Source: Polyangiaceae bacterium
GTDB lineage: Bacteria; Myxococcota_A; Polyangia; Polyangiales; Polyangiaceae
Reading direction: 5' to 3'
NCBI GenBank assembly: GCA_029261965.1
Contig: JAJDAH010000380.1
Coordinates: 1-64,000, forward strand
Length of the DNA stretch: 64,000 bases
In this document: positions 57,115 through 61,806 of the stretch, piece by piece
Numbering within the stretch: position 1 is the stretch's first letter
How the letters are laid out: every line of letters begins with the position of its first letter
The notes under the pieces: generated by a model
What the model was told of the DNA's origin: nothing
Seen by the model: the letters and a program-made list of their open reading frames with translations, nothing else
Databases searched by the model: none
Translations under genes and position numbers: made by a program

Positions 57115-58014
57115 ATGGCTGCGAAGGCACACGAGACTAGGTCGTTCGAAGAGATCCTCTTTCACAACGATCGCGTTTCGTTGTGTCTCCTGGTCAACCG
57201 GAGGACCCGCTGCTTGAGGATCATCGACTTCAGGTCAGGGCCGAACCCGGCGAAGCGCATGTTCGTGATGAGCTTGGCTCAGCGCGAGGGCATGGAGCGG
57301 GTGTTCACGCTCGTCGAGCGTGAGGAGGTTTCCACCTGGAGCCGCCTCGGTTTTCATCGCGAGGGCAGCATTCCCGGGTTCTACAAGCGCAGCGACGCTC
57401 ACATTCTCGGGGCGATGGTCCCGCGCGCGCTGACGAATGGGCGCGACGCCGAGTCCGGCGTTCACCCGGTCAACGGAGCGGCGAACAACCGCGCCGAGAA
57501 GCTCTATCAGTCTGCCCGCAAGCTGGCGAAAGAGCGCGAGGGCCAGTCGATGCCCGCCGTGCGCGTCCAGACCAAGCGCGACCAGGACGTGGTCAAGGCC
57601 ACGAGCCAGGCGCTCAGGAACGGTCGAGCCCTCACGGGCTTCGAGCCCTTTGGTCGCGACGTCGACCGCAAGAGTTATCTCTGCACCGCTCGCGGCGGTT
57701 TCTCGTTGGCGGCGTCCGTCGAGAGCCAGCCGTGCTTCAGCAACGCTTTTCTCGAGTTGTTGACGGCTCCGAGGACCGAAAAAGAAGCTGCGGCGACGAC
57801 CGCGGCGATTCGAGGACTCTGCGACGCGCTTTTCGAGCAGGACGTCGTGAGTTGTTTTGCGGTGTCGCCGATCGACGATCTTCAGATGTCGGCGGCGTAC
57901 CTGATGAACGGTTTCCGTCGCACAGGTCGGCTGCAGCAGCACCTGCTCCGGGGCGAGGAACGAAGCGACCTTTTTGTCTGGTCACGCAAGCTCGCCTCGC
58001 CCGACGAAGGTTGA
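57115..58014 (+). CDS. GNAT-like protein with two acetyltransferase-like halves
   Basis: This 299-residue protein starts with ATG at 57115. The N-terminal half ends in VSTWSRLGFHREGSIPGFYKR and the C-terminal half in MSAAYLMNGFRRTGRLQQH. Both resemble the final helix and strand of GNAT folds (GF-xx-x-G...Y). The loop between is basic. I infer a tandem GNAT-like protein; whether both halves bind acetyl-CoA is not clear. Confidence 0.68.
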   Translation: MAAKAHETRSFEEILFHNDRVSLCLLVNRRTRCLRIIDFRSGPNPAKRMFVMSLAQREGMERVFTLVEREEVSTWSRLGFHREGSIPGFYKRSDAHILGAMVPRALTNGRDAESGVHPVNGAANNRAEKLYQSARKLAKEREGQSMPAVRVQTKRDQDVVKATSQALRNGRALTGFEPFGRDVDRKSYLCTARGGFSLAASVESQPCFSNAFLELLTAPRTEKEAAATTAAIRGLCDALFEQDVVSCFAVSPIDDLQMSAAYLMNGFRRTGRLQQHLLRGEERSDLFVWSRKLASPDEG

Positions 58015-58099: not shown

Positions 58100-59260
58100 A
58101 TGAGCATCACTCGACGAGACGCGCTCAAGCTGTTGGTTGCCGGCGGCGTCGTTGGAGTGGGCTGCGAGCGCGCCCGTCCGGGCAAAGCGGCCTCTGGGGA
58201 AGCCGACCCCGGGGAAGCCGACCCCGGTAGGAAAACGAGCGCCCGGGCCGATCCGGTGGTTGGTGTGGAGCCGCTCGGCGCCACTTGGCAGACGCTCGAC
58301 CCGTTTCTTTTTTGCGCCTACCACGACGACGCTTACCCCGCGGGCAACGAGCAGATGGGGCCGGCGGCATCGCTCGCGGGTCGCCAGCTCGGCAGTGACT
58401 TTGGCCGCAAAGACGGCTGGAGCATGTACCACGGGCAAACCGTTCCCGGCTTCCCGCGGCATCCTCATCGCGGGTTCGAAACCGTCTCGGTGGTTCGTCG
58501 CGGTTTGCTCGATCATTCGGATTCACTCGGCGCGACGGCTCGGTACGGCGAAGGCGACGTGCAGTGGCTCACCGCTGGAGCGGGCATCCTCCACGCAGAA
58601 ATGTTCCCGCTCGTACGGCGCACCAACCAGAACCCGCTCGAGATGTTCCAGCTCTGGCTCAACCTTCCCCAGTCGAAAAAGATGGTGCAGCCGCACTTCT
58701 CGATGCTCTGGAAGCCGAGCATTCCCGTCGTGGTCGCGCGCGACGTCGGTGGAGTGGCCGCGGAGATCGACCTCGTGGCCGGTCGTCTCGGTGCCGTCGC
58801 GGCTCCATCGCCGCCGCCCAATTCTTGGGCGGCCGATCCCGAAAGCGACGTGGCGATTTGGACCATCAAGCTGGCGGCTGAGGCGCGTTGGGTCATGCCG
58901 CCCGCTCGGCCCGGCTCGAATCGGGCGCTCTTCTATTTCCGGGGCAGCGGCTTGAGCGTCGGGGGTCGCGCGGTCGATGTGCGACACCGAATCCAGCTCG
59001 CGCCCGACCGGGAGGCAGTGCTCGAAAACGGACCCACGGAGTCCGAGCTGCTGATGATGCAGGGCAAGCCGATCGGCGAACCCGTCGCCAAGCGCGGGCC
59101 GTTCGTGATGAACACCGAGGAAGAAATCCGGCAAGCATTTTCTGACTACCGGCGAACTGAGTTCGGCGGGTGGCCGTGGCAAAAGGACGATCCGGTGCAC
59201 TCGAGACCGGAGGGTCGGTTCGCGAAACACGTCGACGGCCGAATCGAGCGACCAACGTAG
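58100..59260 (+). CDS. Tat-exported lipoprotein pirin
   Basis: This 386-residue protein has the pirin motifs GFPRHPHRGFETVS and WLTAGAGILHAEM, whose His and Glu residues bind the metal. The C-terminal cupin continues with FYFRGSG and LLMMQGKPIGEPVAKRGPFVMN. The N-terminus MSITRRDALKLLVAGGVVGVGC has a twin-arginine motif (TRRDALK) and the lipobox VGVGC, followed by a 15-base repeat (GEADPGEADPG). Pirins are usually cytosolic, so an exported lipoprotein form is unusual. ATG at 58100. Confidence 0.88.
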   Translation: MSITRRDALKLLVAGGVVGVGCERARPGKAASGEADPGEADPGRKTSARADPVVGVEPLGATWQTLDPFLFCAYHDDAYPAGNEQMGPAASLAGRQLGSDFGRKDGWSMYHGQTVPGFPRHPHRGFETVSVVRRGLLDHSDSLGATARYGEGDVQWLTAGAGILHAEMFPLVRRTNQNPLEMFQLWLNLPQSKKMVQPHFSMLWKPSIPVVVARDVGGVAAEIDLVAGRLGAVAAPSPPPNSWAADPESDVAIWTIKLAAEARWVMPPARPGSNRALFYFRGSGLSVGGRAVDVRHRIQLAPDREAVLENGPTESELLMMQGKPIGEPVAKRGPFVMNTEEEIRQAFSDYRRTEFGGWPWQKDDPVHSRPEGRFAKHVDGRIERPT

Positions 59261-59325: not shown

Positions 59326-61806
59326 GTGCGACTCCCCAAGGTGCTGGTTGGACTCGTCTGTCTGTCGGCGAGCCCGGCGTTCGCTCAGAGCCCGGGTGCC
59401 GCAGCTCCACCCGGTCGAGCCCAGCTGGCCCTCGACGTGAAGTTGAGCCTCGCGGGGCTGAGCGCTCGTTCTTGCGCACAAGCCCCGTGCGCCGGTGCGG
59501 AGTCCCCAGTGGCGATCGCGCCCGAGGCGTTGGCGCAGGCGTCTCGGGGCACGGTCGCGGTCGTGCCCATCGGTCAGGGGCGCCACGCGGTGCACGTGCG
59601 GATCCCCGTCGGGGTTCGAGCGTGGGAAACCGTGCTCGCGGCGCCCAGTCGGGGCGCGCAGCCGAAGATCGTATTCAACGATTGGACGGGGCTGGTGAAG
59701 GGCCAAGACGGGCTTCGCTCGGGTCCCATCGTGCAGGTGTCCGAGGCCATGGCCGATGGCACGCGTCGAATCGTCATCGGCGAGCAGCGCGAGGACCTGA
59801 CGCTGTGCGGGCGACCGGCGGCACTTCGACCGAAAATGCTCGTCGCAAAGAGTCTCGAGCTCAAGGCGGCGCGGATGCATCGCCTCTCCGTTCAAGAGCG
59901 TTCGGCGGCAACCAGGATCGGCGCGACTCGGCTCGAAGGGGAGTGGAAGCCTGGGCCGCCGCTCCTGCGCGCGGTAGCCGCCTCGAGCGCGGCGTCGGGA
60001 ACGAATCCGGCGGCGCTCACCGATTCGGACCTCGAGACCACATGGGCCGAAGGGCGGGGTGGATCGGGGCGCGGCGAGTTTGCCGTCCTCCAAGCCACCC
60101 CCGAGGTGGGCATCCGCGCGTTCGAGATCGTGATTCGACCGCCCACCGAAACGCCCGCGAACGGCGTCGCGCCGGACGAAATCTACCTCGCGACGCCCAA
60201 GCGTCTCTTTCATGTGTCGATGCCCGAGGACGTGTGGGGTGTTCCCGGCGCCCGCTACTCCGTGAAGCTTCCCGAGCCCGTGCGAACCGACTGCGTCGCC
60301 CTCGTGACCCACAGCGCTCAAGGCGAAGGCAAGGACATGCGAGTCTCCTTCGCCGAAATTTCGGCCGAGAGCGAGCTTGGCTCGCAAAGCATCTCGGAGC
60401 TCGTGGCGGCGCTGGCCAGCGGTGACGCTCGTGCGGTCGCCGCCGCCGCCGTGCTTCGGAATCTAGGCGACCCGGCGTTCGGCGCGGTGGCGAAGGCCTT
60501 CGATGGACTGGACGAAGGCGGCCGCCGCGTCGCACTCGACGTCGTGGACCACGCGCCGTGCAAGACGTCGGTGCCGGTGTACGTGCGCGCATTGCTCGGA
60601 GCACATGCGGCGCAACAGATCCACGCGAGCCATCGGCTTCGGCGTTGTGGCTCCGAAAGCGCTGAGCCGCTCTCGCTAGCCCTCCGTCGAGCCAACGCCA
60701 AAACCGTCGGGTTGCTCGCGGAGATGCTGGCCGTGGTCGCGCCGGATACCGCCGTGACCGAGATGCTCGCTCGGGTCGCGAAGGGAAACCGAGAGATCCG
60801 CGCCGTGCTGCGGGTGGCGCTGGCGAGGGCTTCGACCTCGGAAAAGTCCGCCAACAAGATCCGCGAAGCGCTCGACGATGGGTCCGTGCCCCCGGTGGTG
60901 AGCATCGACTTGCTGCGCGCCCTCGGGCCTCGGCTCCCGCGATTCGGCGCTCAGGCCCAAAGGGCGTTTCTTCGCTTGGCCAAGCCGGGCGCGAACCTGC
61001 GCACTCGCTATCTGTTGCTCGTTCCCGCCGCGCACCTCGCCCGCTCGTCGCCGGCGGCCAAGAGCTTTCTCTCCAAAGCGATCACTTCGGACGAGAGCCA
61101 CTTCGTCCGCGCCGGCGCGGCGCTCAGTGTCCAGCGGCCCGGCGAGTTTCGCGACGAGCTCCTCCAGGCTCTCGGCGACGACAACGTGCGTGTTCGCGAA
61201 GCCGCCGTCGCGACGCTTGGTAGCCCCCACGGTACGTTTGCTTGGGAGCAGATCGTCGAGAGACTCACCAAGGACCGGTGGCCGCTCGTCCGGTCTCGAG
61301 CGGCGCGGGCCCTCGCCGATCTCGGTCCGAGTCGTTCGATTGACCGAGCGCTCGCCGGCGCTCTCGAAGACCAATCCGGTCATGTACGGTTGCCCGTAGT
61401 TCTGGCGCTCGGGAATCGGCGCGCGCTCGCCGAGGCGCCGCTCGTGCGAGAGCGACTTTCCGACGGCGATGAGATCCTCGCCGTACGGGCGAACGCTGCG
61501 CGTGCCCTCGGCTTGATGTGCGACCAGACGTCGATTCGGCTGCTCACGGATTGGGCGAACAAGCTGGTCGACGGTCGTGCGTCCGAGGCAGCGCATGCGA
61601 TCGGACCCGCCGCGGTCTGGGCGCTCGGACAGCTCGGGCCGACGGACCTGAAGAAGCGTCTCACGCCGCTTCTGGCAAAAGAGGCCCCCGTCGTTGCGCG
61701 TGCCGCCGCCGGTATGGCGCTCCGCGCCAACGGTCAGCGCTGCCGTCGACGCCCGGCAACGGTGGCTCGACGCGCTTTGCCGCGGAGGGTAGCCAGCGGG
61801 CTCTGA
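59326..61806 (+). CDS. Exported HEAT-repeat protein
   Basis: This 826-residue protein (GTG start) has a Sec signal (MRLPKVLVGLVCLSASPAFA). A beta-rich N-terminal part (about 30-340) includes a discoidin-like segment (ALTDSDLETTWAEG). HEAT repeats make up the C-terminal half (DDNVRVREAAVATLGS, LVRSRAARALADLG, AVRANAARALGL). It is probably a periplasmic or surface scaffold. Its TGA overlaps the ATG of the epimerase gene (TGATG). Confidence 0.82.
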   Translation: MRLPKVLVGLVCLSASPAFAQSPGAAAPPGRAQLALDVKLSLAGLSARSCAQAPCAGAESPVAIAPEALAQASRGTVAVVPIGQGRHAVHVRIPVGVRAWETVLAAPSRGAQPKIVFNDWTGLVKGQDGLRSGPIVQVSEAMADGTRRIVIGEQREDLTLCGRPAALRPKMLVAKSLELKAARMHRLSVQERSAATRIGATRLEGEWKPGPPLLRAVAASSAASGTNPAALTDSDLETTWAEGRGGSGRGEFAVLQATPEVGIRAFEIVIRPPTETPANGVAPDEIYLATPKRLFHVSMPEDVWGVPGARYSVKLPEPVRTDCVALVTHSAQGEGKDMRVSFAEISAESELGSQSISELVAALASGDARAVAAAAVLRNLGDPAFGAVAKAFDGLDEGGRRVALDVVDHAPCKTSVPVYVRALLGAHAAQQIHASHRLRRCGSESAEPLSLALRRANAKTVGLLAEMLAVVAPDTAVTEMLARVAKGNREIRAVLRVALARASTSEKSANKIREALDDGSVPPVVSIDLLRALGPRLPRFGAQAQRAFLRLAKPGANLRTRYLLLVPAAHLARSSPAAKSFLSKAITSDESHFVRAGAALSVQRPGEFRDELLQALGDDNVRVREAAVATLGSPHGTFAWEQIVERLTKDRWPLVRSRAARALADLGPSRSIDRALAGALEDQSGHVRLPVVLALGNRRALAEAPLVRERLSDGDEILAVRANAARALGLMCDQTSIRLLTDWANKLVDGRASEAAHAIGPAAVWALGQLGPTDLKKRLTPLLAKEAPVVARAAAGMALRANGQRCRRRPATVARRALPRRVASGL

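Follow-up and report, generated by a model that had tools for sequence, protein, structure and literature searches.

The window, i.e. the whole stretch of 64,000 nucleotides that was analysed, carries on its forward strand an open frame of 386 codons plus a stop (58100-59260, ATG to TAG) which codes for a pirin. Both Pfam domains are recognized: Pirin at residues 112-187 (E 3.2e-23, 82.3 bits for a gathering score of 26.1) and Pirin_C at residues 254-356 (E 1.6e-20, 73.8 bits for a gathering score of 27). No NCBIfam model matches the protein (E <= 1). The features of the gene are the following.

58100..59260, + strand: pirin gene, putative Tat lipoprotein, 386 aa plus stop (ORF and Pfam)
58100..58162, + strand: twin-arginine leader, residues 1-21, MSITRRDALKLLVAGGVVGVG (sequence; 49 of 158 relatives are laid out alike)
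58163..58165, + strand: Cys22, presumed lipidated (sequence; 48 of the 49 relatives with an RR leader have the Cys)
58166..58252, + strand: low-complexity linker, residues 23-51 (pLDDT below 50 for residues 1-36; the linkers of the relatives are their most variable part)
58316..58432, + strand: subfamily-specific insertion, approximately residues 73-111, AYHDDAYPAGN...GSDFGRKDGWSMYH (DPF-to-HPH spacing; conserved residues)
58433..58660, + strand: Pirin N-terminal cupin, Pfam 112-187, ligands H121/H123/H165/E167 (Pfam, relatives, AF2 model)
58859..59167, + strand: Pirin C-terminal cupin, residues 254-356 (Pfam)
59168..59257, + strand: subfamily C-terminal tail, residues 357-386, past Pirin_C, GGWPW...RFAKHVDG (Pfam, relatives)

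The first 22 residues, MSITRRDALKLLVAGGVVGVGC, contain a pair of arginines at positions 5-6, an uncharged stretch at 11-21 and a cysteine at 22. The TRRDALK segment (T-RR-DALK, residues 4-10) and the VGVGC lipobox to which a sequence-only reading of this DNA had drawn attention are thus both in place. The lipobox proper is GVGC; its glycine in position -3 is not the commonest residue there. No Tat-signal model of Pfam or NCBIfam scores on the protein (E <= 1; these profiles span 21 positions), and such short profiles are known to miss many true signals. Inspection of the sequence ahead of ATG 58100 gives no clear Shine-Dalgarno motif, and two GTG codons, at 58256 and 58265, are in frame, so that a leaderless product could in principle be made from either.

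The flanking genes, both on the + strand, are 85 bases before and 65 bases after the pirin gene. The upstream 299-aa ORF (57115-58014), which ends 85 bases ahead of the pirin start, looks acetyltransferase-like by eye in its N-terminal half and has no match in a Pfam scan. Directly downstream (59326-61806) is a HEAT-repeat protein, whose N-terminus reads by eye as a typical secretory leader (MRLPKVLVGLVCLSASPAFAQS) and which has a sub-threshold match to the F5/8 type C domain at residues 227-267. No promoter-like site was found around the pirin gene, and terminator-like sites occur at chance level. When the ORFs of 49 leader-bearing loci were compared all against all, with at most about 4-6 kb of flanking DNA and less for the 1.5-kb loci, every neighbour family was limited to 4 loci at most, and we therefore rejected an operon or pathway reading.

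Conservation and ancestry of the leader

The comparison is based on 195 loci, of which 193 match at 1e-5 (two do not); those from Myxococcota are the best-scoring matches of a genome search rather than a full census. The strict combination of RR, hydrophobic run and lipobox is present in 41 of the 193 pirin frames versus 24 of 1693 other ORF frames, the latter being ORFs of at least 300 codons from the same loci, among which true Tat lipoproteins still count as controls. Another 24 loci have the RR and the hydrophobic run and no regular lipobox. By eye, 13 of them were taken as leaders (atypical lipoboxes, L085, which has no cysteine, and L187, the true leader of which was read separately), a manual step that is biased towards clear cases; for the remaining 11 we rejected the leader reading and consider the segment to be upstream sequence.

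Nine of the 193 loci have no DPFLF-type anchor; once these, the duplicate of the window and short rows were taken out (181 rows left), thinning at 90% identity gave 158 rows for a tree. A leader is found in 49 of them and none in 109. The search for pirins with this N-terminus across Myxococcota, suggested by the sequence-only reading, returns many, and its refuting condition that every homologue lack a signal peptide does not hold. In 48 of the 49, a cysteine stands 15-24 residues past the RR, L085 being the sole exception. The lipobox varies: it is VAGC in L090, and in several relatives position -1 is an aspartate (TDC, VDC, ADC).

The tree was calculated from the domain alone (rows cut 12 residues ahead of DPF, leader excluded) by a quick maximum-likelihood method, and many of its branches are weakly supported. 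The leader and leaderless labels change five times on it, compared to a mean of 41.9-42.0 when they are shuffled, and none of 500 shuffles is as low. The well-supported branches force at most one origin, the direction of which (gain or loss) is undecidable from the tree. The window pirin groups with L004 (support 96), then with L085 (support 98). L004 (6001-7080) is a Planctomycetota MAG with a putative Tat-lipoprotein pirin, which may have arisen by horizontal transfer or may reflect a mis-binned contig. L085 (G363:C208) comes from a Myxococcota genome that belongs to the window's class; its pirin, 63% identical to that of the window, has an RR leader and no lipobox cysteine, which suggests that some of these pirins may be exported with no lipid anchor.

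Substitution rates give the same picture of constraint. In six of six close pairs of other leader-bearing genes, dN is lower than dS over the stretch from the start to the cysteine (0.02-0.29 and 0.14-2.6, respectively), and in all six the dN of the linker exceeds that of the leader and that of the pirin domain. A constrained leader followed by a drifting linker is the pattern predicted for a working export signal. The leader is not a chance pattern.

A different possibility is that translation starts downstream, at GTG 58256 or 58265, so that the protein is cytosolic and the leader is the translation, on paper only, of non-coding DNA. The leaderless relatives begin exactly there, and the ribosome site ahead of ATG 58100 is not clear, but the layout of the leader is common to relatives whose domain is just about 60% identical, dN is below dS in the leaders of the relatives, and the labels are clustered on the tree. 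We consider this explanation highly improbable; the downstream start lacking the signal, which could have overturned the original proposal, was looked for and no better one is evident. From its sequence, the window pirin very probably leaves the cytosol by Tat.

Whether the exported protein would also receive a lipid is a separate matter. It could be exported by Tat without lipidation, the hydrophobic stretch serving as an uncleaved N-terminal anchor or being cut by signal peptidase I. L085, which retains the RR and the hydrophobic stretch and has no cysteine, would be consistent with that, as would the atypical glycine at -3 in the window and the aspartate at -1 in relatives; against it, the cysteine is held at its place in 48 of 49 relatives while the linker behind it drifts. 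Non-lipidated export is improbable on this evidence, and lipidation of the window pirin quite probable. Both the conservation and the tree lend good support to the predicted export and lipid anchoring of an intact pirin fold, as first proposed.

A long-insertion subfamily with a conserved metal site

The spacing from DPF to HPHRGFET is 54-55 residues in 155 of the 155 relatives in which it was measured (3 of the 158 rows, which have no exact motif, were left out of the count), and 23 in a paralogue of the same genome. Near-invariant residues in the insertion are H75, D77, P80, P88, G98, D100, F101, M109, Y110, H111 and G112. Judged by these sequence features, the window pirin is a member of a distinct long-insertion subfamily which has two parallel forms, one predicted to be cytosolic and the other exported. 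Comamonadaceae and Myxococcota also have long-insertion pirins that lack the leader. These share the insertion and the ligands with the window pirin, at about 55-64% identity, but their ORF begins directly at the domain, with no RR leader (109 of the 158 rows).

The window protein has matches at E <= 0.001 in 253 of 377 Myxococcota genomes, other pirins included. Its own genome codes for two further pirins, on contigs C447 and C258. The former, the paralogue mentioned above, has canonical length and no RR leader in the printed sequence; the latter was left out, being too distant for the cut-off of the script. Of the long-insertion subfamily, this genome yielded just the putatively exported form. 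In the seven other genomes with two such genes among the best-scoring matches, one gene has the leader and one does not, in seven cases out of seven. In other search sets, whose sampling outside Myxococcota is uneven, a leader is found in 4 of 77 usable loci, the window aside: two from Polyangiaceae, one from a 'delta proteobacterium' and one from a Planctomycetota MAG.

HPHRG (H121, H123) and H165-A-E167 are invariant in 158 of 158 relatives. We take H121, H123, H165 and E167 to be the metal ligands of the N-terminal cupin of pirins; the claim that the pirin metal motifs are intact thus holds for the window protein and for every relative. Such invariance speaks for the metal site being functional in the exported as well as in the leaderless forms.

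The AF2 model of the window pirin has a mean pLDDT of 90.3; the leader is disordered, and residues 1-36 are the sole stretch below 50. In fold searches the solved structures nearest to the model are Yersinia YhaK (Z 30.9, rmsd 1.7, 261 aligned residues) and human pirin (Z 29.6-29.7, rmsd 2.0, 260 aligned), and the predicted fold is that of a bicupin, with Z of 29.3-30.9 to YhaK, 6d0p and human pirin. The protein shares this fold, both Pfam domains and four identical ligands in the N-terminal cupin with human pirin (1J1L), Yersinia YhaK (7TE5/7TG5) and E. coli YhhW (1TQ5). It is set apart from them by its putative Tat-lipoprotein leader, a DPF-to-HPH interval that is longer by about 31 residues (by comparison with the paralogue of its own genome) and a conserved tail of 30 residues.

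A fused variant with an additional N-terminal domain

In eight leader-bearing genes (six of the family labelled f25, one of f33 and one of f53), the frame is open upstream of the RR segment. The resulting layout is a domain of approximately 150 residues (which starts like MTPEEAL...LDEATENLTFEEFDWAFEE), then RR-TALK-hydrophobic-Cys, the linker and the pirin. A profile search detects the domain in 10 of 377 Myxococcota genomes (eight f25, one f33, one f53); all ten matches sit in the open frame of the pirin, and the domain occurs nowhere else in this search.

L177:4002-5606, - strand: fused pirin; others in L171, L131, L152, L163, L183, L121, L187, L201 and L206
L177:5880-7433, - strand: metal transporter (Nramp) beside a fused pirin
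L163:5793-8237, + strand: metal transporter (heavy-metal P-type ATPase) beside a fused pirin

In the three closest pairs, the dN of the domain is 0.10-0.12 versus a dS of 0.41-0.53, and the dN of the RR segment is 0.02-0.04. The model of the domain has four main helices, with block-mean pLDDT of 75-97 over residues 1-120. Searches of Pfam and NCBIfam, with one member each time, return no family of note (best E 0.13), and a PDB sequence search returns a single chance-level match (E 0.84); when the whole fused model is used for a fold search, pirins and other cupins fill the matches. We considered that the domain might be of the anti-sigma type, and rejected the idea since there is no family match and no sigma factor among the flanking genes (10 ORFs of 5 loci). 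The flanks of these five loci are mixed: Nramp, heavy-metal ATPase, LysR, RCC1, HTTM and GST, and four ORFs without a family. A metal transporter adjoins two of the five, which is too few to weigh.

Given this layout, the fused protein may cross the membrane and display a domain at either face, or translation from an internal start may additionally yield the simple lipoprotein, and the two may coexist.

Proposed function and significance

Tat carries folded proteins, and the genes for TatC and LspA are both present in the genome of the window. We propose that the pirin would fold in the cytosol and be loaded there with its metal, Fe(II) most likely or possibly Mn(II), and that the folded protein would pass through Tat. 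Lipoprotein signal peptidase would then cut ahead of Cys22, and the lipid on this residue, together with the flexible linker of about 29 residues, would tether the pirin at an envelope membrane. In the periplasm or at the cell surface it would most likely act as an oxygenase whose substrate is a diffusible aromatic compound or a similar small molecule.

Precedent for parts of this scheme comes by analogy from a cupin of another family. The Mn(II) protein MncA of Synechocystis (2VQA) is described as a cupin that is exported folded by Tat with metal trapped in the cytosol (PMC11742986). On this reasoning, Fe(II) or Mn(II) acquired in the cytosol would be delivered to the envelope by a Tat-exported pirin. 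MncA is of the oxalate decarboxylase type and is not called a lipoprotein there (PMC11742986), so that the likeness is one of analogy and not of membership; in the fold search the AF2 model aligns with it at Z 12.8 (rmsd 3.9, 207 aligned). Regarding catalysis, quercetinase activity is reported for pirins (PMC3765361), which by analogy makes an oxygenase acting on a small molecule the simplest guess. The role that the sequence-only reading suggested, in extracellular redox or quercetin-like cleavage, is likewise a conjecture.

It may be that the protein is mainly a sensor rather than an enzyme, the pirin domain outside reading the redox state of iron or a ligand and signalling to a partner. The solved structure of the Yersinia relatives is titled 'redox-sensitive bicupin', and 10 of 377 genomes fuse a conserved N-terminal domain ahead of the membrane segment of the pirin. 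However, the window pirin has no domain inside, and no conserved neighbour offers itself as a partner. We regard this explanation as rather unlikely for the window pirin, for which an enzymatic main role is a candidate with about even chances. Somewhat more doubtful still is the broader proposal that exported pirins are envelope sensors of redox or iron, of which one lineage became a single-pass receptor with the helical domain inside, an internal twin-arginine segment across the membrane and the folded, metal-loaded pirin outside; if true, a Tat substrate would have a large folded domain ahead of its signal, facing the cytosol, and outside-in signalling would have a new route.

Taken as a whole, the explanation that we prefer, a mononuclear-metal bicupin that would be exported folded by Tat, lipidated on Cys22 and active as an oxygenase in the envelope, is likely. 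The sequences point to an exported, probably lipid-anchored branch of pirins, a new variant which is widespread within Myxococcota. In the searchable literature on pirins and on Tat-exported cupins, which leaves most subscription papers outside its coverage, we found no Tat or lipoprotein pirin, and within that literature the envelope is, as initially noted, an unusual location for this family.

A Tat-exported branch would shift the unsettled question of the role of bacterial pirins outside the cytoplasm. Export by Tat predicts that the metal is loaded in the cytosol ahead of export, and the putatively cytosolic and exported paralogues of the same genome are natural pairs for comparison. Last, the fused variant could reveal a link between inside and outside.
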